DNA from: Nitrospinota bacterium
GTDB taxonomy: Bacteria; 2-12-FULL-45-22; JACOWJ01
Direction: 5' to 3'
Assembly (NCBI GenBank): GCA_016176845.1
Contig: JACOWJ010000017.1
Coordinates: 1 to 29,608, forward strand
DNA length: 29,608 bases
A model generated the notes under the pieces. It worked only from the letters and a program-made list of their open reading frames with translations. It was not told the DNA's origin and made no database searches. Shown here piece after piece: positions 4,431-28,937 of this stretch (position 1 is its first letter; each line of letters opens with the position of its first letter). A program made the position numbers and the translations under genes.

Positions 4431-4550
4431 AAGAGATTTCCCGTGAAGCAGATCCGAAGGGGTTGGTCGAACGGTAGGAAAGATGGCGATCCAGAGATTG
4501 GGCTCGTGGATAGAAACCTTTCCACCCCACAGAGAAAGGCTTGTTCGTCG

Positions 4551-5309
4551 ATGATCGAGGTATTCCGAGAAAAATTCAGAAAACGTCATCAGCTTTTGCA
4601 AGACCTCAAGGCAAAGAACCGAAAGACAATGGGCTGGGTTTGCACCTATGCCCCAGAAGAGATTCTCTACGCTGCCGGGGTGGTCCCGATTCGGATCTTG
4701 GGGGGGGCCACGGAAACACCCATGGCCGACGCCTACTTCTATTCCAACAGTTGTTCTTTTATCCGCAACTGTTTGGAAGAGGGGTTTCAGGGGAAGTATG
4801 ACCCTTTGGAGGGAGTGGTGATTTGCCAAACGTGCGATCATATCCGCCGCTTCTCCGATATCTGGAACCGTTACCTGAAAGAGCGGACCCCTTTTACCTA
4901 TGCGCTGAACATCCCATGTAAGATGGATCTTGACCTGGTCAGCGATTATCAAAGGACCCTGGAGCAATTTAAGGCCTCCCTGGAGGAATTCCTGGGGAAG
5001 GAGATTACGGAAGAGGCCCTGGCCAAACGGTATCTGCTTCGTCCTCCCTGTCCCCGAATGAGTCCCCAGGAGGTACGAATCGCCCATTTAAAGCAGATGA
5101 TCGAAGAGTTCCACGTCGAAGGGGTCATCTATGAAACGATTAAATTCTGTGATCTCCATGCCGGCGTCTATCCCGTCATTAAGGACGGACTGGCAGAATT
5201 AGGCGTCCCGGTGTTGAAGTTGGAAAGAGAGCATCTCCTGGCGGGAAGCGGGCAGTTGAGCACCAGAACGCAGGCATTCCTGGAGAGTATCGGCGCCGAA
5301 GTCGCTTGA
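4551..5309 (+). CDS. HgdB/BcrC-type subunit (2-hydroxyacyl-CoA dehydratase/benzoyl-CoA reductase family), internally shortened
   Basis: 252 residues from ATG 4551 (MIEVFREKFRKRHQLLQ). A GTG start at 4443 would add 36 residues but lacks a ribosome site. The N-terminal lobe (MGWVCTYAPEEILYAAGVVP, SNSCSFIRN, ICQTCDHIRRFSDIW) and the C-terminal lobe (RYLLRPPCPRM, GVIYETIKFCDLHAGVYP, STRTQAFLE) match the subunit family carrying a [4Fe-4S] cluster in ATP-dependent dehydratases and benzoyl-CoA reductases. Cysteines in NSC, TCD and KFCD, which occupy the usual cluster-ligand positions, are present. Family members are about 370-390 residues. Here the helix region KEITEE joins directly to ALAKRYLLRPP, so the central roughly 90-100 residues are missing in frame. 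The next gene, its probable partner, starts 26 bp after the stop. No activator ATPase (HgdC/BcrA/BcrD type) is in the window. Confidence 0.75.
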   Translation: MIEVFREKFRKRHQLLQDLKAKNRKTMGWVCTYAPEEILYAAGVVPIRILGGATETPMADAYFYSNSCSFIRNCLEEGFQGKYDPLEGVVICQTCDHIRRFSDIWNRYLKERTPFTYALNIPCKMDLDLVSDYQRTLEQFKASLEEFLGKEITEEALAKRYLLRPPCPRMSPQEVRIAHLKQMIEEFHVEGVIYETIKFCDLHAGVYPVIKDGLAELGVPVLKLEREHLLAGSGQLSTRTQAFLESIGAEVA

Positions 5310-5335
5310 GAAGATCGACGAAGGAGAACGAATCG

Positions 5336-6631
5336 ATGAGCAAAGAACGGGATCTGATGGAGAGCGTGGTCGCCTCCTTCGAGCAGCGGTTGAACTATCG
5401 AAGGGCCCATCCTGCGGCCAAGAGCAAGGAGCTCTATGTCCAGGCGATGAAAGATTATTTTGAGATGGTGCTCCGGGCCAAAGAAGAGGGGAAACATCTG
5501 GCCTGGACCAGTTTTGCCGTGCCGGTCGAGCTGTTTTACGCCATGGATACCGTCCCCTTCCTGGTGGAGCAGTTCTGTATCACCGACCTGGTTCAACGGA
5601 TCGCTCAGGGGCAAGGGTTGGAATATTTTGATATCGGAGCCGGAACGGGCTTTTCTACCGAAACCTGCTCTCCCCACCTGGCGACCGTGGGCATGGCGAA
5701 GGATGGGGCACTGCCGAAGCCGGATTTCATCATCGGGGCGAACTCCCCTTGCGATTCGGGATTGGTGGCCTTTTACGTCTTGAACAGTCTCTACCAATGC
5801 CCCAGTTTTTATCTGGACTACCCCTATCTCGCGGGAGAGGAGGCCATACGGTATTTCAAAAGAGATCTGGAACGGATGGTAAAATTTCTGGAAGAACAGA
5901 CCGGGAAGAAGATGGACTATGACCGGTTGAGAGAGGTCATGAAGTCCTCGGGCAAAGCCCATAACGATTATCTGAAGACGATGCAGTTAAGGAAGGCAAC
6001 CCCGGCGCCTTTCGGGGGGAGAGAGGCCTTCTCCTTGATGACCATTAAAATTTACACGGAAGGTCTCCCCCAAACCACGGAGTTTTTTGAGACCCTTTAC
6101 CGGGAAAACCAGGAGAAAGTCGATCGTGGAGAGGGAGTGCTGGCCGACGAGCGGCACCGCATTGCCTGGTTCGGCGGCTACCCTTTCTTCTTCACCAGGA
6201 TCACCGATTGGATGGAGGAGAATTTTCAGACGGTCGTCGTGGGGGATGGGTTGTGCTTGATTCCGAACACGCCGGTCGAGGATCTCTCCGATCCGTTGGA
6301 GTGTCTGGCCAGGAAAAATATGGGGGCCTCCTATTGGAAGATCACCCGGAGTTTTTGCCATGTGGCGGAAGATTTGGGCGACTTATCGAAAGAGTTCGGG
6401 ATCGACGGCGCCGTTTTCTTTGCCAGTCTGGGCTGCAAGCAGAACGGCGGGCAAATGAGGATGTTCCAGGATGTCTGGCGGGAAAAGCTGGGCATTCCGA
6501 CCCTCATCCTGGACGGAGATGTGATGGACCCCCGGGTGGTTTCCGCTGAACAGATGAAGGTGCGGTTGAGGGAGTTCTTTCCCCTCCTGGAGACCTCGAA
6601 GTCGTCCAGGTTGTCGCCTGTGGTTGTGTGA
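5336..6631 (+). CDS. BcrB/HgdA-type subunit (2-hydroxyacyl-CoA dehydratase/benzoyl-CoA reductase family)
   Basis: 431 residues from ATG 5336, with AAGGAG 9 nt upstream (an in-frame start at 5306 overlaps the previous gene). It is the larger partner type of the family. It starts with a helical segment, then WTSFAVPVELFYAMDTVPF, and has three cysteines in the expected cluster positions: TETCSPH, ANSPCDSG and ASLGCKQNGGQ. Unlike its upstream partner it appears full length. Enzymes of this type use a low-potential electron, delivered by a separate ATP-hydrolysing activator, to dehydrate 2-hydroxyacyl-CoAs or reduce aromatic acyl-CoAs. The exact substrate cannot be told from sequence. It belongs to one operon with the upstream subunit and probably the downstream crotonase. 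Confidence 0.82.
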   Translation: MSKERDLMESVVASFEQRLNYRRAHPAAKSKELYVQAMKDYFEMVLRAKEEGKHLAWTSFAVPVELFYAMDTVPFLVEQFCITDLVQRIAQGQGLEYFDIGAGTGFSTETCSPHLATVGMAKDGALPKPDFIIGANSPCDSGLVAFYVLNSLYQCPSFYLDYPYLAGEEAIRYFKRDLERMVKFLEEQTGKKMDYDRLREVMKSSGKAHNDYLKTMQLRKATPAPFGGREAFSLMTIKIYTEGLPQTTEFFETLYRENQEKVDRGEGVLADERHRIAWFGGYPFFFTRITDWMEENFQTVVVGDGLCLIPNTPVEDLSDPLECLARKNMGASYWKITRSFCHVAEDLGDLSKEFGIDGAVFFASLGCKQNGGQMRMFQDVWREKLGIPTLILDGDVMDPRVVSAEQMKVRLREFFPLLETSKSSRLSPVVV

Positions 6632-13119: not shown

Positions 13120-15654
13120 CTAGAAATCTCCGCGGGTCTGTTCCTTCAGCACCAGGTGCTGATGGATTGTGGCGAAGATCCCCAAGGGAACCGTGTGGTT
13201 CTGGAACATCTCATCAGGGCTGATCAGGCGGCCGTCAGGCCGTTTGAACTGGTGGATCTTGCCCTTCTTGCGGTCCACCGGCCAACCCTTTTCATCCAGG
13301 TAGCGCAGCAGCTTGAACTTGAGATTCAGGGGCAGCTCGTTCTGGTCGCGCAGGTGGTATTCCCAGTCGGGAGGCAGGCCCCGGTCCAGCAGGCCATAGG
13401 CATTGATGTAGTTGCCGATTCGGGCGGCCTTGCCGTCGCGCATGTCATTGGGACTGAAGCCCAGCTTGGAGATCATCATCACCGCCTCCTCCCGGGTCTC
13501 TACCGGAACCAGCAGGTGGTTAGGGAAGGGCTCGATGAAGAGCTTCTTGCCGGTGAAGCCCTGGTAGACCCACCAGCGCCCCTCGTCCTGATAGTCCCCC
13601 AGCAGGCCGCGGTCCAGCAGTTCGCTCCCCCTGGGCCCGACGACCACCGGGATGCCATAGCGGGCCCAACCGGCCGCCTGGGTCAGCATCTCCTCGGTCT
13701 GGAGGCCCCAGATGACCACACAGGTGAACAGCCCGATCGTCTGCCGGTCGGCCACCTCCAGATAGTTGGCCCGGAAGGGGACCTTGCCGGCGATGTTGAT
13801 TAGCTTGCTGTCCCCGGCCATGCTGTGGCAATTGGCGGTACACTCGCCCAGGTTGACCACGCCGCGGACGCTGAAGAGGGTGTAGTGGCGCTCATAGACG
13901 GTCTTGCCCTCGGGGTTCCGATCGCGGGCCGCCGCCAGGGCCGCACAGCCCGAGACGTAGAGGGAGAAGCCCCGCTGGGCCAGTTCCTCCACCAGCCAGG
14001 CCACCTCCTGCCGGGCTCCGGGGGAGGCACAACAGCCGGTGACGGTGACGAACCCCGGGCTGTTGCCGTAGCCTGCCGTGAAGGCCACGTCTCGGTACTC
14101 CAGATGGGTGACCGGTCCCCGGCCGGCTCGAATGTTAAACCCTTCGCCCTCGATCTCCTCCCGGTTGGCCTTGAGGTAGAGGTCGATCAAACGGATCCCC
14201 GCCGGACAGGCCCGCTCGCAGGCCCCGCAGAAGTTGGTCTGTCGCTCAATGCCCCGCAGTCCTTCGGGATCGCCTGCGGCCGCCCGCTTGAGTGCCCCCG
14301 GAATGTCGAGCTCCCCGGGACAGATGGCCTCGCAACGGCCGCAGCCGGTGCACCGGCCGGCCTCGGTGGCCAGGTCGGCCGGGGTAAAGCCCAGGCCCTT
14401 TCGCTCCCTCACGCGCTTTCCCCGGAAGGCCAGGGCCGCCAGGGCCGCCTTGTGGGGATCGGTGACCACCGCCGCGCCGGCGGGACCATCGCCCAGGTGG
14501 GCCACGATGGACTCCAGGGGCTCGCGAGTCAGGTCGGGCAGCAGGGCATGGGCCCGGGCGGAGGTCAGGAGGAGAGGAATGCCGTGCTCGCGGGCCTCTC
14601 TCAGGATGTCGAGGGCGGTGCAGCCCTCATCCAGCAAAATCAGGTCGGGGATGCCCAGCCGGATGAACTTTACGAGGTCGGAGGCGATCCCCAGGGCCCG
14701 CGCCCCATCGTAGATCCGGGGCAGCTTCTGGGCGGCCTTGCCCACCCCGCACAGCTCCACCTCTCCCTGCAGCCCTTGCCCCTCCAGCTCCTTGACCAGC
14801 TCCGGGGCGACCAGATCTCCCGCCCCGACCAGCAGGACCACGTAGCGAGAGAGGTCCACAGAGGCCGCGCCGCTGCGGGTGGTGGGGGGAGGCCACTGCT
14901 TGAGGGCCACCAGGTCATGGTGGCCGGCGCTCTTGTGGCGATAGACGCAGATGTTGAGGATCTCGCTCACCTCCAGGGCCACGAAGGCCAGCATCCCGGC
15001 GTGGAGCGTGCGGGACTCCAGGTCTGCCCCGCTCAAACCGCTGCCGAAGGCGGCTGCCGCCGCCAGCCCCTCCACCTCCCGCTCCAGGTAAGCGATCACC
15101 GGCTCCAGGTCACGGATCCGGGCAGGATGGAGTCCCGTCACCGTCCAGATGAGCATGACGGGGTAATAGATGCTGGGCCCCAGATTGATCGGGTGGTCCT
15201 CGGCCTCGCTGCCCGGGCAAGGGGCATAGAGGAGCCTGGCCTGGTGGATGTAGCGCTGGGCCCCCAGCAGGGCCCGTCGCAGCGCCCTCAAAGCCAGGGA
15301 GCGGTCCAGATCCAGCCCACAGATGCCCGGCCATCCCTCCTTGAGCTCACAGATCCTCTGACCACACAGGTCACAGCGGGTGGAGCTGGGGAGAACGGCT
15401 CTCCCGTACCGCTCCAGCAGGAGCTGGTCCCGCGGGGCGATATCTTCATGCCGGGCGAAAGGGAGGAGGGTGGGACGGATCTGCCGGAGGCGCTTCTCGG
15501 TCCACTCGTCCCGGATGATGTCACGCACCAAATCCCGGCAGCGCTGGGGATCGGCCACCAGATCCTCGTAGCGGACGGTTAAGTTGCCTACGGTGATGCT
15601 CTCTTCGTCCCAGGTTACCTTCTTTTCGATCAACTCCCTGGTCTCTTCGCTCAT
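13120..15654 (-). CDS. CdhA-like CO dehydrogenase/acetyl-CoA synthase alpha-subunit homologue with altered C-cluster
   Basis: 844 residues. The ATG at 15654 (AGGTG 5 nt upstream) is preferred over an in-frame start at 15723. Domain order follows CdhA. A cluster segment CDLCGQRIC then GWPGICGLD (near residue 92) matches the B/D-cluster region. A domain near residues 270-350 ends in PDLILLDEGC. Two ferredoxin motifs follow, CTGCGRCEAICP and CGACERACP (about 433-480). Then come TVTGCCASPG (540), VSGCAALAA (568), VNLGECTANC (602), WARYGIPVVVGPRGSE and a C-terminal GFSPNDMRDGKAARI segment. CdhA reversibly oxidises CO at a Ni-Fe-S C-cluster. Four of the expected C-cluster Cys positions are retained, but the usual G-H-N histidine reads VGAGDLVAP and the usual G-I-C-C cysteine reads CGVGKAAQK. 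No CdhB, CdhC, CdhD or CdhE partner is nearby. It is transcribed divergently from the oxidoreductase operon. Confidence 0.78.
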   Translation of the reverse strand: MSEETRELIEKKVTWDEESITVGNLTVRYEDLVADPQRCRDLVRDIIRDEWTEKRLRQIRPTLLPFARHEDIAPRDQLLLERYGRAVLPSSTRCDLCGQRICELKEGWPGICGLDLDRSLALRALRRALLGAQRYIHQARLLYAPCPGSEAEDHPINLGPSIYYPVMLIWTVTGLHPARIRDLEPVIAYLEREVEGLAAAAAFGSGLSGADLESRTLHAGMLAFVALEVSEILNICVYRHKSAGHHDLVALKQWPPPTTRSGAASVDLSRYVVLLVGAGDLVAPELVKELEGQGLQGEVELCGVGKAAQKLPRIYDGARALGIASDLVKFIRLGIPDLILLDEGCTALDILREAREHGIPLLLTSARAHALLPDLTREPLESIVAHLGDGPAGAAVVTDPHKAALAALAFRGKRVRERKGLGFTPADLATEAGRCTGCGRCEAICPGELDIPGALKRAAAGDPEGLRGIERQTNFCGACERACPAGIRLIDLYLKANREEIEGEGFNIRAGRGPVTHLEYRDVAFTAGYGNSPGFVTVTGCCASPGARQEVAWLVEELAQRGFSLYVSGCAALAAARDRNPEGKTVYERHYTLFSVRGVVNLGECTANCHSMAGDSKLINIAGKVPFRANYLEVADRQTIGLFTCVVIWGLQTEEMLTQAAGWARYGIPVVVGPRGSELLDRGLLGDYQDEGRWWVYQGFTGKKLFIEPFPNHLLVPVETREEAVMMISKLGFSPNDMRDGKAARIGNYINAYGLLDRGLPPDWEYHLRDQNELPLNLKFKLLRYLDEKGWPVDRKKGKIHQFKRPDGRLISPDEMFQNHTVPLGIFATIHQHLVLKEQTRGDF

Positions 15655-15982
15655 GAGGCACCTCTCTCGACCTGATACGGTCCTTTGGCTTAATGTACGG
15701 GGTATCCGGTCTACCCCTTTCACGGGATCAAGGCTGCCAGCCCTTTAGCCTGGGCCCTATCCCTCTCTTACTCCTCCTGGGTTGGCTCCTTCTCTTTTTC
15801 AATCCGCCAGGGTCTTAGGGACTCTATGAAAATAAATTATCCCAAAGTTTGGCTTTCTGAGCAGACCCTGTTTGACCCCATAGCTACTGGCTGGGATATT
15901 TAATTTTTCTTTTGAGTCCCTTACAAACCGTTCAAAAAGGCGTTCCAACAATCCGTAATGTCTGGGATATCTCGTAAGGGAT

Positions 15983-16459: not shown

Positions 16460-16485
16460 AATCCAGGAAAGAAGGAAAATCGGTG

Positions 16486-17052
16486 ATGCTAAATATCCGC
16501 ATCCATGGAAGAGGAGGGCAAGGGGTCGTCACGGCCTCTAAGATATTGGGGATGGCCGCCTATCTTGCAGGCAAGCAGGTGAGAACCTTCCCGCTCTATG
16601 GGGCTGAAAGAAGGGGTGCTCCGGTAACGGCTTTCATCCGAATCGACGAAGCGGAGATCCATTTGAAATCTTTGATTTATCACCCCGATTGCATCATGGT
16701 CATAGATTCCAGACTCCCTTATGTGATCCATCCTTTTCAGGGGCTGAAATCAGGGGGGACGGTGATCTTAAACTCCCGTCTTCATCCTCAGGAAGCAAGA
16801 GCCAAACTGGGATTGAAAAATATCGAAGGGATCGCCGTCGTAAAAGCTACGGATATTGCCGAGGAAGTCTTAGGAACACCGATCACGAACATCGTGATGC
16901 TGGGCGCCTTTCCGAAAATGTATGGATTTATATCGCTGGACTCCATTAAACAGGGGATTAGAACGGTATTCGGCGAAGGCGAACGGGGTGATCGACAGAT
17001 TCAGGCCGCAGAGATCGGATATCAAAATACTGAAATAGCTCATAACTCATAG
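16486..17052 (+). CDS. 2-oxoacid:ferredoxin oxidoreductase gamma subunit
   Basis: 188 residues from ATG 16486; GTG 16483 directly before it is equally served by AAGGA. It shows the family signature HGRGGQGVVTASKILGMAA, then FPLYGAERRGAPVTAFIRI, MVIDSRLPY and NIVMLGAFPKMYGFI, as in the gamma subunit (PorG/VorG/KorC type) of CoA-dependent 2-oxoacid:ferredoxin oxidoreductases, a cytoplasmic TPP and Fe-S enzyme. The last residues (QNTEIAHNS) are encoded within an AGCTCAT-type repeat that also supplies the stop codon, so the native C-terminus has been replaced or extended by repeat DNA. It is the first gene of the operon gamma, ferredoxin, fused alpha-beta. Confidence 0.88.
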   Translation: MLNIRIHGRGGQGVVTASKILGMAAYLAGKQVRTFPLYGAERRGAPVTAFIRIDEAEIHLKSLIYHPDCIMVIDSRLPYVIHPFQGLKSGGTVILNSRLHPQEARAKLGLKNIEGIAVVKATDIAEEVLGTPITNIVMLGAFPKMYGFISLDSIKQGIRTVFGEGERGDRQIQAAEIGYQNTEIAHNS

Positions 17053-17704: not shown

Positions 17705-19792
17705 ATGGCTAAGGTTGAGTTAATCACGGGCAACGAGGCGGTCGCTCATGGAGTCAGGCTTGCCAGAACGGAGGTGATCGCGACTTATCCGATTACGCCC
17801 CAGACCACCATCATCGAAGAACTGGCCAAGTTTGTTGCTAAAGGAGAATTAGATAGCCGGTTCATCAATGTGGAATCGGAACATTCAGCGGCTTCTGTCT
17901 GCCAGGGGTCTGCGCTGGCGGGAGTCCGGACCTTCACAGCGACCTGTTCTCTGGGGCTGGCGTATATGTATGAGCCCCTGACCTTCTTTCATGAATATCG
18001 ACTCCCCGTCGTCATGGCGATTACCAATCGACCCCTTCCATTTGGCGGTCTGGCGGCCGATTATTCCGATTCGATGTCCATCCGAGACTTCGGCTTTATT
18101 CAATTCTTTGTCGAGAGCAATCAGGAAGCCCTGGATACGATCATTCAAGCGTATAAGATTGCTGAAGACCCGAGGGTCCTGCTCCCGGTCATGGTGAATG
18201 TCGATGGATGTTTCCTCTCCTTTTCCTCGGAACTGGTTTCCATTCCCGAGCAAAAGAAGGTCGATCAATTTTTGCCTTCCTATCGCCCGCCGGAAATCAT
18301 CCTCGACCCGGATCATCCTACGGCGGAATGGTATCTGGTAGAGCTGAGCATTCACCGAGAAAACAGCATCGAAGAGACGATGCGGAAGGCCCGGCAGGTC
18401 ATCGAGGAGACTGGGAGCGACTTTGAAAAGATTTTTGGAAGAAAATGGGGGCTGGTGGAGGATTATCGGTGCGAGGATGCCCAGGTGGTCCTGGTTACCC
18501 TGGGATCGGTCACCAGTACGGCCCGGGAAGTGGTCAAGGAATTTCGGGCCTCGGGAGAAGCCCTCGGTCTCTTGAAACTGAGGACCTTTCGGCCATTTCC
18601 AGAAGAAGAGATCTTAAGGATCGCCGCAAAGGCCGAAGTGATCGTCGTCGTGGATCGGAACGTGTCCCACGGTTCCGGAGGGGGATGCGGGATCGTCTAC
18701 AATGAGGTGCGATCTACCTTATACGATTTCAACAAAAGACCGAAAGTGATGAGCTTTATTGCGGGGACCGGAGGCCTGGATATCTCTGAAGATATGTTAA
18801 GAGATATGGCCAGACAGGCCCTTCAAGCGACCCAAAGCAGGCCCAAGGGAATTGGAAGCAGAACCCATTGGGTCTTGCCGGACCTGGAGAAGGTGCCTCA
18901 AAGCCAGCCCGTGATCCCGAAAAAGGCCCAGGAAAAGTTACTCTATCCGGGGCTCCAGACCTGTGCCGGATGTGCTGGGACGCTCCTTTTCAGGACAGCC
19001 GTCGAAACGATCGGCAAAGACCATGTCATGATCCTTCCTTTTTGCTGTGTCGATGTCGGGTTAATCAGCATGTATGGGGACTTCTCACCCATCAAAGTGC
19101 CCGCTTTCTTCCCTTGTGTCTTTGCCGGAACGGCTTCGGTCTCCACGGGAGTTCGGGCCGGATTGGATCGCCGGGGGAAGATGGACACGCTGGTGGTCGG
19201 CTTTGCCGGGGATGGCGGGACGGTGGATATCGGCCTCCAATCCCTTTCCGGTGCTGCCAACCGGGGAGAGCCCATTCTGTATATCTGCTATGATAATGAA
19301 GCGTACATGAACACCGGGATTCAGAGGAGTGGGTCCACTCCCTATGGCGCCAACACAGCGACTACCCCGGCTTCCTCCAAAGGGCAGGGCAACCCTACGC
19401 CGCTTCCCAAAGACATGGGCCGGATTATGGCGGCTCACGACATCCCTTATGTGGCAACGGCCTCGGTGGCTCTTCTGAAAGATTATCAACGAAAGCTATT
19501 GAAAGCCGCCCAGGTCGTCAAGAACCGACAGGGGATGGCCTACATCCATGCCCATAGCCCTTGTCCCCCGGGTTGGGGCTTCCCCGCGAGCAAGACGATT
19601 GAGGTCGCCAGATTGGCGATTCAGACCGGGATGTGGAGGCTGTATGAGATCGAGCATGGGAAGCATCACGCGACCAAGACGCCTTTCGCGCCCCAACCCA
19701 TATCGGAATACATCAAAGCGCAGGGCCGTTTCAGCCGCTTAACGGACGAACAAATCTCCCTGCTGGAGGCTCAAGTCATCAAGGAGCCATGA
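17705..19792 (+). CDS. 2-oxoacid:ferredoxin oxidoreductase, fused alpha and beta subunits
   Basis: 695 residues from ATG 17705 (GAGAGGGCGGG upstream). Residues 1 to about 390 are a complete alpha subunit: LITGNEAVAHGVRLA, TYPITPQTTIIEELA, ESEHSAASVCQGSALAGVRT, then a transketolase C-terminal-like domain with LGLLKLRTFRPFPEEEI. Residues about 400-695 are a complete beta subunit: LQTCAGCAGTLLFRTAVE with cluster cysteines near 418, FAGDGGTVDIGLQSLSGAAN (TPP site, near 500), YDNEAYMNTGIQRSGSTP and a conserved cysteine in HSPCPPGWGF. In most organisms these are separate chains (PorA and PorB). Here no stop or start separates them. With the separate gamma and delta genes this makes a complete CoA-dependent enzyme. 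The substrate could be pyruvate, a branched or an aromatic 2-oxoacid. Confidence 0.9.
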   Translation: MAKVELITGNEAVAHGVRLARTEVIATYPITPQTTIIEELAKFVAKGELDSRFINVESEHSAASVCQGSALAGVRTFTATCSLGLAYMYEPLTFFHEYRLPVVMAITNRPLPFGGLAADYSDSMSIRDFGFIQFFVESNQEALDTIIQAYKIAEDPRVLLPVMVNVDGCFLSFSSELVSIPEQKKVDQFLPSYRPPEIILDPDHPTAEWYLVELSIHRENSIEETMRKARQVIEETGSDFEKIFGRKWGLVEDYRCEDAQVVLVTLGSVTSTAREVVKEFRASGEALGLLKLRTFRPFPEEEILRIAAKAEVIVVVDRNVSHGSGGGCGIVYNEVRSTLYDFNKRPKVMSFIAGTGGLDISEDMLRDMARQALQATQSRPKGIGSRTHWVLPDLEKVPQSQPVIPKKAQEKLLYPGLQTCAGCAGTLLFRTAVETIGKDHVMILPFCCVDVGLISMYGDFSPIKVPAFFPCVFAGTASVSTGVRAGLDRRGKMDTLVVGFAGDGGTVDIGLQSLSGAANRGEPILYICYDNEAYMNTGIQRSGSTPYGANTATTPASSKGQGNPTPLPKDMGRIMAAHDIPYVATASVALLKDYQRKLLKAAQVVKNRQGMAYIHAHSPCPPGWGFPASKTIEVARLAIQTGMWRLYEIEHGKHHATKTPFAPQPISEYIKAQGRFSRLTDEQISLLEAQVIKEP

Positions 19793-23268: not shown

Positions 23269-23757
23269 ATGGCGGATCCGCAAGAATGGATGGAAAAATT
23301 GGCCCTTCAAGAGCTCTTTGCGCGTTATGCGCACACCGTCGATGGGTATGATGCCGAGGGATGGGTGGACTGTTTCACCGAGGATGGGATCTTCGAGGTG
23401 GAAGGAGGGGGGTCCAGGTTGCAGTTTCGCGGACGCGAGGCCCTCCTCGAGTTCGTCCAGGCGCACATCCAGTTGCTTCCGGGGACCCGACACGTAATGA
23501 CGGGCCATCTGGCTGAAATCCAGGGAAACGAGGCGAGCCACCGCTGCACCCTGACGGGCTTTTTGACGAGGCCGGGGAAGGTCTACACCTTTGCCTCCGG
23601 GTGGTACGAATCGAAACTCAAGAAGGTCAATGGCCAGTGGAAGATCGCGCATCGGATCGCGCACTGCGACAACTTCGAACAGTTCACCCAGGGGGAGATC
23701 GCCAATCTCTTCGGGAGCTTCAACACCTGGATGGCGGAGCATGCCACGCGGCCCTGA
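23269..23757 (+). CDS. SnoaL-like/NTF2-fold protein
   Basis: 162 residues from ATG 23269, with GGAGGGAGGAAGG just upstream. The pattern LALQELFARYAHTVDGYDAE, GWVDCFTEDGIFEVEG, FRGREALLEFVQAH, TRHVMTGHLAEIQG and GQWKIAHRIAHCDNF is that of SnoaL-like polyketide cyclase/dehydratase and ring-hydroxylating dioxygenase beta-type NTF2 folds. Asp in the first helix-turn and His in TRHVMTGH are typical active-site positions. Its reaction cannot be inferred; such proteins often act as small isomerases or hydratases. It is the first gene of an operon with the selenoprotein, 55 bp downstream. Confidence 0.78.
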   Translation: MADPQEWMEKLALQELFARYAHTVDGYDAEGWVDCFTEDGIFEVEGGGSRLQFRGREALLEFVQAHIQLLPGTRHVMTGHLAEIQGNEASHRCTLTGFLTRPGKVYTFASGWYESKLKKVNGQWKIAHRIAHCDNFEQFTQGEIANLFGSFNTWMAEHATRP

Positions 23758-23812
23758 GGTTTCGGGCCCCGAAGGGGAATCGTTCAACCGCATTACACGG
23801 GAGGAGCATTCG

Positions 23813-25561
23813 ATGAACGAGAAGCATCCAGAGGGCTTGTACGCTGTAGTCTGGCCCCGCGGCAAAAAGGTCGTCAAGCTCCGGCCGCTGGCCCACCGGC
23901 TGGAAACCCTGGAAGGCAAGACCATCGGCCAGCTGTGGGATCACATCTTCCGGGGGGATGAGATCTTTCCCCTGATCGAGGAGGGATTGAAGCAGCGATT
24001 CCCTGGCGTGAAGTTCGTCCGCTACGATGCCTTCGGCTCCACCCACGGGGACGAGGAGCGCCAGGTCCTGGCCGAGCTGCCCGCCAAGCTGAAGCGCTAC
24101 GGCGTGGACGCGGTGATCTCCGGGATGGCCTGCTGAGGGAGCTGCACGCCCGCCGTGTTGCGGGCCAGCGCCGTGGTCGAGCAGGCCGGGGTTCCCACCG
24201 CATCGCTGGTATGCGAAGGGTTTCTGGGACAGGCCGCAACCACCGCCTCCGGCTTGGGCCATCCCAACATGCCGGTGGCCAAGGTTCCCGGCCACGTTGA
24301 CGTGCAGAGCGCGGAGGAGCTGCGAAACAACATCCTTCAGGTGACGCTGGATGCGGTCATCAGCAATTTGACCGCAAATCCCGGCGAGGCCCGGGACGAA
24401 CCCGAGCCGGGGGCCCAGGAAATCGTGTTCGAGGGCACCGCCGAGGAAGTGAACCGGCTCTTTTACGAGAATGAGTGGAGCGATGGACTGCCCATCGTTC
24501 CCCCCACCCCGGAGAAGGTGGAGGAGCTCCTGCGCTTCACCGATCGCGATCCCGAAGAGGAGATCGGAGTGCTCCTGCCGGACAACCGCAGTGCCACCGT
24601 ATGGAGCGTGGCCGTCAACGGCGTGATGGCCGGCTGCCGGCCGGAGTACATGCCGGTGTTGCTGGCCTTGATCGAGGCGATGGCCGACCCGGCTTATGGC
24701 GTCGAGCATAGCGGCAACACGCCGGGAGCGGAGACGTTGGTCACGATCAACGGCCCGATCATCCGGGAGCTGGGGTTCAACTACGAGCAGGGGGCGCTGC
24801 GGGACGGATTCCAGGCGAACACCGCCATCGGCCGCTTCTGGCGGCTCTACCTGAGGAACGTGGCCGGCTTCCTGCCCCATAAGACCGACAAGGGCACCTT
24901 CGGCAACACCTGGCGGGTAGTGCTGGCGGAGAACGAGGAGGCCCTCGCCAAAATCGGCTGGGAGCCGATGAGCGTCGATCGGGGTTTTCAGGCGGGCGAC
25001 AATGTGGTCACCATCTCCCGCTACACCGGCGGCAACGTCATCGCGTCGGTCTTCGGCAGCAAGGCGGAGGAGCTACTGCCCTACATGGCCGATGCGCTGG
25101 CGCGGATGATCGGGTGGGAGCTCTGCTTCACCGTCGGCATGGCCACGGGCACGCAGAAGCCCCTGTTGATCCTGAGCCCGATCCTGGCGGAGGCGATCGC
25201 CAAGTCCGGCTTCTCCAAGCAGGACGTGAAGAACTATCTCTACCGGCACGCGCGTATTCCCGCCTGGAAGTTCGAGCAGTACCTGGGAAAGTGGACGAAC
25301 CTGATCCCCGGAGGCCGCACGCTTAACGATCTGGTGAACTTCGGCAAGGCCCCCAGGCAGTTCGGCGAGTCCGCCGACCCCAACCGCCTGGTGCCCATCG
25401 TCTGCGAGCCGGAGGATTTCCAGATCACCGTGAGCGGCGACCCGTTGCGCACCAACGCCTACGTCTTTGTGCACAACGGGATGCTGGGCTTCCCGACCAG
25501 CAAGGAGATCTGTCTGCCGGCTAACTGGAATACCTTGCTGCGGGAGGCGAGATCAGTATAG
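23813..25561 (+). CDS. UGSC-family selenoprotein fused to a second conserved domain (in-frame TGA read as selenocysteine)
   Basis: 582 residues from ATG 23813 (GGGAGGAG 6 nt upstream), with TGA 24134-24136 read as Sec at residue 108. Before the TGA the sequence runs GVDAVISGMAC. After it the same frame continues GSCTPAVLRASAVVEQAGVP and then for 475 codons without a stop. The resulting C-U-G-S-C is the signature of the UGSC selenoprotein family, whose Cys forms have CGSC. A hairpin at 24141-24169 fits a bacterial SECIS. Residues 1 to about 200 form the UGSC domain. From about 203 onward (FEGTAEEVNRLFYENEWSDG, LPIVPPTPEKVEELLRFTD, VNGVMAGCRPEYMPVL) it is a domain repeated in the next gene. The part after the TGA has no ribosome site of its own. 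A redox role at U/C is inferred; the substrate is unknown. SelA, SelB and tRNA-Sec genes are not in the window. Confidence 0.88.
24141..24169 (+). promoter_or_regulatory. Candidate bacterial SECIS hairpin
   Basis: A lower stem GCTG/CAGC (24141-24144 with 24166-24169), a CAC bulge, an upper stem GCCCGC/GCGGGC (24148-24153 with 24160-24165) and a 6-nt apical loop CGTGTT. The loop begins 17 nt after the TGA and has G as its second base, matching the published geometry of bacterial SECIS elements (loop about 16-37 nt after UGA, G in the first two loop bases). It should recruit SelB-GTP-Sec-tRNA. Confidence 0.72.
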
Positions 25562-25562
25562 G

Positions 25563-25583
25563 TCATAGCTCATAGCTCATAGC
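25563..25583 (+). repeat. AGCTCAT heptamer repeat after the selenoprotein gene
   Basis: Three CATAGCT-type heptamers begin directly after the stop codon, the same family as 17035-17062. Confidence 0.55.
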
Positions 25584-25689
25584 GGATCGCTCGTAGTTTT
25601 TAACCAACTCCTCATGCCCTGGATACACCCAGGCACAGGAAAATGACCCCCTCCCCTTCCTTGCCTCCCGCCAGGGGAGGGGACAATCA

Positions 25690-25752
25690 AGCTCATAGCT
25701 CCTGGCTCAAAGCTCATCGTGGGTGGCTGCTTTGAGCTATGAGCTTTGAGCT
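25690..25752. repeat. AGCTCAT-type inverted repeat ahead of the 25767 gene
   Basis: AGCTCATAGCTCCTGGCTCA at the left pairs imperfectly with TGAGCTATGAGCTTTGAGCT at the right around GTGGGTGG. The hairpin ends about 4 bp before the ribosome site AAGGA of the next gene, so it may affect translation or processing of the operon transcript. Confidence 0.6.
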
Positions 25753-25766
25753 AACAAGGAATCCTC

Positions 25767-26981
25767 ATGGCCGCACGCGACACGGACAGCCTGTGGGTGC
25801 TGCTCCCAACGGGTCAGCAAAGCTCGGGAGCCTGGATCGACGACACGTTGAAGGAGCGGGTGCGGGAGAAAGGGCTGGCGGGCAAAATTCCGCTGGCGGG
25901 CCGGTTTCCGCGGCAACGGGTGGAGGTGATCCGGGATACGGACCCGGCGGCGATCAACGAGCTCTTCTACCGGCGCGGCTGGACCGACGGCCTGCCGATC
26001 ATTCCCCCCACCCTGGGCCGGGTGGAGGAGATGCTCCGCTTCACCGACCTCCCCCGGCAGGCGGTGATCGGAGAGCTCGATCCCCTCAAGGGCCAGGCGA
26101 CCGTGGAAAAAATCGCCGCCAACGCGGTGATGGCGGGCTGCCGCCCCGAGTACCTGCCCATCCTCCTTGCGGCGGTAGAGCTACTGGTCGACCCGCAGTT
26201 CAACCTGCGCGGGGTGCAGACCACGGATGAGAACGTCGCTCCCCTACTCATCCTCAATGGGCCGATCGCGCGCCAGCTGGAGATCAACGCCGGCTTCGGC
26301 GCCCTGGGCCCCGGCTGGCAGGCCAACGCCACCCTCGGCCGGGCCCTGCGGCTGATCCTGAACAATATCGGGGGCGGATGGCCGGGGGCCGTCTCCTTCG
26401 CGGGGATCGGGCAGCCTGGGCGTTATACGATGTGCCTGGCGGAAAACGAGCTCCAAAGCCCCTGGCCACCGCTGCACGTGGAGCTGGGCCACGATCCGCA
26501 GACGAGCACCGTGACCTTGATGCGGGCCGAGACGGCCATCAACGTAACGGGGGGATTGGCGGAGGTGGCCAGCGTGATGGGCAGTGCGGCCTCCCAATTC
26601 ACCCTGCTGCACCGGGGTAAAGTGGCCGTGGTCCTGGCCCCGTACGTGGCGCAAAAGCTTTCGGCGGAGGGCTGGGGGAAGGCGGAGGTGCGCCGCTACC
26701 TCCATGCGCAGGGACGCGTGCCCGCGCCGGCGCTGGAGCGCTCGTGGCTCTTCTCCAGGGTGTACGGTCGAAAGGACTGGCCCGACTGGGTGCGCCAGGC
26801 CGCAGAGCACGGCTCCGTGCCGGCAGTGAAGGACCCGGAGGATATCACCCTGATCGTGGCGGGGGGCGACATCCCCATCCCGCAGAACGTCTATTTTCCC
26901 TCCTGGGGCTTCCCCCCCTGCCGCCTTACCCGGGAGATCCAGCTGCCCCGGAACTGGGAGTCGTATAAGGAGGCGACATGA
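25767..26981 (+). CDS. Paralogue of the selenoprotein's C-terminal domain
   Basis: 404 residues from ATG 25767 (AAGGA upstream). From about residue 60 it parallels the second domain of the preceding selenoprotein: INELFYRRGWTDGLPIIPPT, VEEMLRFTD, ANAVMAGCRPEYLPILLAAV, LILNGPIARQLEINAGFGAL, GPGWQANATLGRALRLILNN, a CLAENE strand, and a C-terminal PEDITLIVAGGDIPIPQNVY. The single motif N-x-V-M-A-G-C-R-P-E-Y is shared exactly in pattern by both and may hold a key cysteine. The first 55 residues are unrelated to the UGSC domain. The two proteins are likely subunits of one complex formed by gene duplication. I do not know an experimentally established function. No membrane segment or signal peptide is seen. 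Confidence 0.75.
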   Translation: MAARDTDSLWVLLPTGQQSSGAWIDDTLKERVREKGLAGKIPLAGRFPRQRVEVIRDTDPAAINELFYRRGWTDGLPIIPPTLGRVEEMLRFTDLPRQAVIGELDPLKGQATVEKIAANAVMAGCRPEYLPILLAAVELLVDPQFNLRGVQTTDENVAPLLILNGPIARQLEINAGFGALGPGWQANATLGRALRLILNNIGGGWPGAVSFAGIGQPGRYTMCLAENELQSPWPPLHVELGHDPQTSTVTLMRAETAINVTGGLAEVASVMGSAASQFTLLHRGKVAVVLAPYVAQKLSAEGWGKAEVRRYLHAQGRVPAPALERSWLFSRVYGRKDWPDWVRQAAEHGSVPAVKDPEDITLIVAGGDIPIPQNVYFPSWGFPPCRLTREIQLPRNWESYKEAT

Positions 26982-28592: not shown

Positions 28593-28937
28593 TTATCTCG
28601 CGCCGAATTTATCGAACATGTACCAGTAGCCGCCCTTATCCGTAGCCGGTTGGCCGTCGCGGTAACCGGCCTTGTTCAGTTCGGCACAGGCGGCAATGAC
28701 AATCGGGGCTTGTTTCACAGCGTTCATACCCCGGTTACCCGGGCGTACGGCGTTCTCTGCAATTTGCGTTATTACGCTGCTGTCTTTAACCACAACAAAC
28801 CGCCATGTCTGGGAATTACCCCAGGAGGGGGCCAGGCGTCCCGCCTCAAGGATCGCATCGAGTGTTTTATCATCTACCGGCGACGTTTTGTAGGCGCGGA
28901 TAGTTCTCCTTTTTCTGATTGCTTCTAAAACGTCCAT
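28593..28937 (-). pseudogene. Nitroreductase-family protein, C-terminally truncated
   Basis: 114 residues from ATG 28937 (GGGGGGAG upstream). MDVLEAIRKRRTIRAYKTSP, LDAILEAGRLAPSWGNSQTW and RFVVVKDSSVITQIAENAV are the FMN-binding N-terminal half of NfsA/FRP-type nitroreductases. Members are usually 165-200 residues; this one stops after GGYWYMFDKFGAR, just where the family continues into the helix and strand that complete the flavin site and dimer interface. The break lies 35 bp before the start of the uncharacterised gene, consistent with an insertion or deletion at that junction. Probably non-functional, although the promoter and ribosome site look intact. Confidence 0.7.

Follow-up and report, generated by a model that had tools for sequence, protein, structure and literature searches.

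We propose that positions 23813-25561 of the window, the whole 29,608-nucleotide stretch of Nitrospinota bacterium DNA that was analysed, very probably encode one UGSC-family selenoprotein of 582 amino acids, in which the UGA at 24134 is read as selenocysteine (Sec). Default pipelines would mis-annotate this region as two fragments. The gene joins an already known, uncharacterised selenoprotein family, described in 2008 in a PLoS Genetics metagenome survey (PMC2398784), and being a UGSC selenoprotein is not new. The features of the locus are as follows.

23269..23757, + strand: SnoaL_4-domain protein upstream (Pfam); this association with the selenoprotein gene is not kept in the relatives examined
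23796..23812, + strand: Shine-Dalgarno-like GGGAGGAG and spacer before the ATG at 23813 (sequence)
23813..25561, + strand: putative selenoprotein gene, 582 aa, Sec at 108, with a UGSC domain (aa 12-187) and a C-terminal domain (about aa 203-582)
24134..24136, + strand: in-frame TGA, predicted Sec codon 108, motif C-U-G-S-C with Cys 107 and Cys 111 (homologue column)
24148..24165, + strand: predicted bacterial SECIS apical hairpin, 6-bp stem, loop CGUGUU, conserved G at 24155 (synonymous constraint, pairing, covariation)
24419..25558, + strand: C-terminal domain coding region, motifs WSDGLPIVPPT and VMAGCRPEY, no Pfam family (profile search, model)
25767..26981, + strand: paralog of the C-terminal domain, 404 aa, no Sec domain (39% identity)

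The reading frame and its in-frame TGA

The frame runs from the ATG at 23813, preceded by a good ribosome site (GGGAGGAG), to a TAG at 25559-25561, and its single internal stop is the TGA at 24134-24136. On read-through the residues around Sec108 are ISGMAC-U-GSCTPAVLR. An earlier note on this DNA had joined two frames into one gene, and that joining holds: there is one TGA, in a C-TGA-G-S-C context, the frame stays open beyond it, and the joined chain models confidently. The long open frame that it reported after the TGA is also present, at 474 sense codons rather than the 475 it gave, and its statement that the downstream part lacks a ribosome site agrees with our finding that no possible restart codon 3' of the TGA has a well-placed one. 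The nearest homologue (L024, another genome, 77% identity) retains the TGA. Base changes between the two genes at codon positions 1, 2 and 3 number 13, 16 and 52 upstream of the TGA and 91, 63 and 186 downstream of it, and this third-position excess on both sides indicates that both halves are constrained as protein.

We consider it very improbable that translation instead stops at the UGA to leave a short UGSC piece, with the C-terminal part made as a second protein from its own start. Such an arrangement has a parallel in L032, L033, L047, L036 and haloarchaeal plasmids, which carry the UGSC frame and the C-domain as separate neighbours. These split relatives, however, break some 80-100 codons after Sec, at the domain border, with the Sec TGA still inside an open frame, whereas the window TGA lies inside the UGSC domain, is followed by no well-placed ribosome site and sits in a joined chain that models as one fold.

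Membership of the UGSC family, also claimed in the earlier note, is borne out by a match of residues 12-187 to Pfam UGSC (PF24696; 106.7 bits against a cut-off of 25), a profile matched by all 66 aligned members, and the U/C-G-S-C active-site motif is present as C-TGA-G-S-C at codons 107-111. The NCBI UGSC equivalog NF041046 is missed (52.6 against 125 bits), although other fused relatives, with a D-U-G-[SG]-C motif, pass it (for example L112 and L130); the window protein thus falls in an outlying subfamily, marked by CUGSCTPAV.

Several genomes in a search of 386, the window's own included, carry the identical architecture with one TGA, and a scan of GTDB genomes added 80 further loci from alpha-, beta- and gammaproteobacteria, Chloroflexi, actinobacteria, Rokubacteria, Acidobacteria, Firmicutes and others. 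Relatives sought in viral contigs gave none. Across 111 homologous places the Sec column reads TGA in 94, TGC in 15 and TGT in 2, counts that follow best hits, include paralogs and are not frequencies in nature. One of the two TGT codons (L089) is an alignment slip beside a TGA; with that slip set aside the column holds only Sec or Cys. The alignment to Cys members that had been suggested as a check returned TGA in 94 of 111 places and Cys codons otherwise. Most Cys forms belong to a CGLC group of gut and rumen bacteria (Treponema, Lentisphaeria, Verrucomicrobia); others come from Nocardioides (L094) and one betaproteobacterium (L116). Two side observations concern these relatives. In L104, L106, L108, L110, L111, L113-L115, L117, L118, L121, L125 and L126, mainly from gut and rumen, CGLC replaces UGSC and the tail is longer, and one Chloroflexi genome holds three fused UGSC selenoprotein genes in tandem (L107, 3905-9353).

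The case for a sequencing error at the TGA, or for a pseudogene, is that the DNA comes from a single incomplete assembly (68% complete, 61 contigs). Many independent genomes nevertheless share the TGA, coding constraint acts on both halves and the SECIS is kept, and we regard this explanation as extremely improbable. A sequencing error, which the earlier note had named as a way for its reading to fail, is excluded in practice, since this column holds TGA in dozens of independent genomes and Cys in all the others.

Predicted selenocysteine insertion

The host genome (1.53 Mb in 61 contigs, 68% complete, the window being contig 22) encodes the machinery for which the earlier note had proposed a search, and whose complete absence it had named as refuting its reading, each component above its cut-off: selA (C61, 608 bits against 268), selB (C55, 378 against 242), selD (C23, 381 against 125) and tRNA-Sec (C61, 70 bits against a gathering threshold of 47), which ARAGORN also calls as tRNA-SeC with anticodon tca. 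The selD gene (G000:C23:19348-20271, L020) is itself interrupted by a TGA, in the motif GAG-U, and so supplies a second clear Sec codon in this genome.

The candidate SECIS pairs GCCCGC (24148-24153) with GCGGGC (24160-24165) around the loop CGUGUU (24154-24159), whose second base is G, and the spacing from TGA to loop is 17 nt. The distance and loop G that the earlier note had put forward for this hairpin both stand. Its folding energy, which the note had offered as a check, is unremarkable: z is -0.8 against shuffled sequence, not unusual for sequence so rich in GC. Energy was therefore not used as evidence, and the hairpin is convincing only by comparison, which does support a SECIS. In a set of 47 fused relatives that includes one Cys form, synonymous constraint peaks at codons 113-117 (mean z 3.3, rank 1 of 470 five-codon windows), and no other column for the residues concerned is as conserved in its codons as Pro113, Val115, Leu116 and Arg117. 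Standard pairs fill 98.1% of stem pair cells in the 43 Sec-encoding sequences, a value that none of 500 shuffles reached. In eight sequences, with relatives as far removed as Geosporobacter (L079) and a betaproteobacterium (L091) among them, the outer pair changes between G-C and A-U; it is broken in five cells among the 43 sequences. Compensatory change is confined to this one of the six pairs, and three pairs are invariant. In the Cys homologue L094 the stem is disrupted. Rfam gave only a sub-threshold hit here, to Pyrobac-1 (31.4 bits, threshold 40), which overlies the hairpin and was taken as chance. On this comparative evidence, the hairpin at 24148-24165 is under selection.

These observations also bear on whether the UGA might be decoded as something other than Sec, through reassignment to Trp or plain readthrough. 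Nothing in particular speaks for this, and we judge it highly improbable: substitutes in the Sec column are Cys and never Trp, the genome encodes SelA, SelB, SelD and tRNA-Sec, constraint acts on the hairpin, and reading UGA as stop gives no trouble in the neighbouring genes.

The C-terminal domain and neighbouring genes

Beyond the UGSC domain lies a conserved domain of about 380 residues that bears no Pfam name. Fusion of UGSC to another conserved domain ("Unknown_1") was already present in the 2008 survey (PMC2398784). Modelled alone, the C-terminal domain reaches a pLDDT of 95.2. Two folds considered for it, class I fumarate hydratase (Foldseek E 1.7e-3, TM about 0.2) and chorismate mutase (VIA Z at most 5.2), were rejected as too weak, and a role as a Grd component was set aside because the domain matches neither GrdB nor GrdE profiles.

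In some relatives, including haloarchaea, the UGSC and C-domains are the products of two adjoining genes, an arrangement that speaks for a functional link between them; on the sequence evidence, the two domains belong together. Of the 20 loci closest to the window, 12 have a C-domain paralog directly 3' of the selenoprotein gene. Near 11 of the 20 closest loci, usually as the third gene, there is a flavoprotein of the pyridine nucleotide-disulphide oxidoreductase family, thioredoxin reductase (TrxR)-like, with a CxxC of CAWC or CAFC. In the window, from a genome 68% complete, no TrxR-like gene is found next door. Other candidate partners were rejected: neither SnoaL nor OYE adjoins the gene in the relatives examined, and CaiB does so only sporadically.

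Several further observations concern the window itself. Between the selenoprotein gene and the paralog (25560-25753) lie repeated AGCTCATAGCTC-type units, both direct and inverted. Elsewhere, two adjoining 2-hydroxyacyl-CoA dehydratase (HGD-D) subunits occupy 4443-6631; a CO dehydrogenase/acetyl-CoA synthase alpha-like gene lies on the minus strand at 13120-15723 (TIGR00314 499 bits, under the cut-off of 781); and pyruvate:ferredoxin oxidoreductase is represented by its alpha and beta subunits in one 695-aa chain (17705-19792) and its gamma subunit at 16483-17052. A short nitroreductase-like frame on the minus strand (28593-28937), beside a DUF3843 gene, matches only the first third of its family and may be a fragment.

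Probable relation to GrdB/PrdB and proposed mechanism

Profile comparison and the predicted model together suggest that the UGSC domain is quite probably homologous to the GrdB-type Sec domain. In hhalign, the profiles of the UGSC domain and of GrdB's C-terminal Sec domain align Sec on Sec at 94-95% probability (P about 1e-7); among the controls, UGSC against GrdE was weak (18%), and the C-terminal domain of the window protein matched neither GrdB nor GrdE. The NCBIfam models for GrdB, GrdF, GrdH and PrdB match a few UGSC members at E-values of 4e-5 to 5e-4, and the PrdB model gives a weak match to the window protein that spans Sec (E 0.013). Pfam's GRDB domain (PF07355), sought in the window protein (P0001), gave no match even at E 10. 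The Pfam GRDB model ends just before Sec, which may be why the relation is not visible in Pfam. A UGSC-GrdB link was not found in the literature searched.

AlphaFold2 (66 sequences) returned one confident model of the joined chain (pLDDT 94.2, pTM 0.93). In it Sec108, represented by Cys, sits between strand 100-106 and helix 111-124 of an alternating beta-alpha domain. Residues 31-190 match the structures of Rossmann-type folds such as PurE with Z up to 10, a value near which a match reflects a common arrangement and is not evidence of function. No thioredoxin appears among the fold matches listed for the Sec-domain model, a listing that may miss a family, and the window protein (P0001), A1 and A4 matched nothing when compared by sequence with solved structures. 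In this model the UGSC domain appears Rossmann-like, rather than taking the thioredoxin fold suggested earlier.

In glycine and D-proline reductases, substrate cleavage proceeds via a Se-C bond and a selenenylsulfide (PMC10298544). A GrdB-like catalytic mode for the window selenoprotein, argued by analogy, is a possibility that we place somewhat short of probable. Decoding of UGA 24134 by SelB and tRNA-Sec, aided by the SECIS hairpin that follows it, is very probable on the comparative evidence. Under the GrdB-like mechanism, the Sec108 selenolate would attack a small substrate, probably of carboxylate type, held between the UGSC domain and the fused C-terminal domain, as proposed for GrdB/PrdB. 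Cys111, or Cys107 in the subfamily having it, would resolve the intermediate into a selenenylsulfide, to be re-reduced by the TrxR-like flavoprotein or by thioredoxin. The downstream C-domain paralog would probably act in complex with the selenoprotein. Slightly more tentatively, we suggest that the fused UGSC selenoprotein, the C-domain paralog and a dedicated TrxR-like flavoprotein might form an uncharacterised Grd-like selenol reductase, reductively cleaving a small organic substrate through a GrdB-type Sec domain in a new domain setting, and occurring widely among proteobacteria, actinobacteria, Chloroflexi and uncultured lineages.

The main rival concerns mechanism only and accepts the gene as a selenoprotein: it would be a thioredoxin-like thiol oxidoreductase or peroxidase for redox defence. 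The UxxC motif is compatible with such a role, as is the TrxR-like gene nearby in relatives, and the 2008 survey gives a likely Trx-like fold for UGSC (PMC2398784). We think it rather unlikely, however, as the model puts Sec in a Rossmann-like sheet, with PurE and other Rossmann-type folds as matches, and the profile relation is to GrdB/PrdB. Taken with the partner gene that is conserved and the gene likely to encode a reductase, the suggested GrdB/PrdB link offers a first concrete biochemical hypothesis for the long-known UGSC family, with named genes on which to test it.

Compared with thioredoxin-fold selenoproteins (Trx-like and Prx-like), the window protein shares the UxxC motif and a presumed redox use, but its Sec domain is predicted to be Rossmann-like alpha/beta and has no Trx-family profile match. 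The resemblance to GrdB, GrdF and GrdH (glycine, sarcosine and betaine reductase selenoprotein B) and to PrdB lies in the C-terminal Sec domain, which aligns over about 100 residues with UGTC in place of UGSC; unlike GrdB, the window protein is without the large N-terminal GRDB domain and carries UGSC followed by an unrelated domain. With the UGSC family (PF24696; NF041046; PMC2398784) it has in common the domain, the UGSC motif and a TGA-encoded Sec with a SECIS, whereas its subfamily does not reach the NF041046 cut-off, is fused to the domain of about 380 residues, and often carries an additional Cys ahead of Sec (CUGSC) with TPAV after it. To this known family our analysis adds a probable relation to GrdB/PrdB, as well as partner genes that are conserved.
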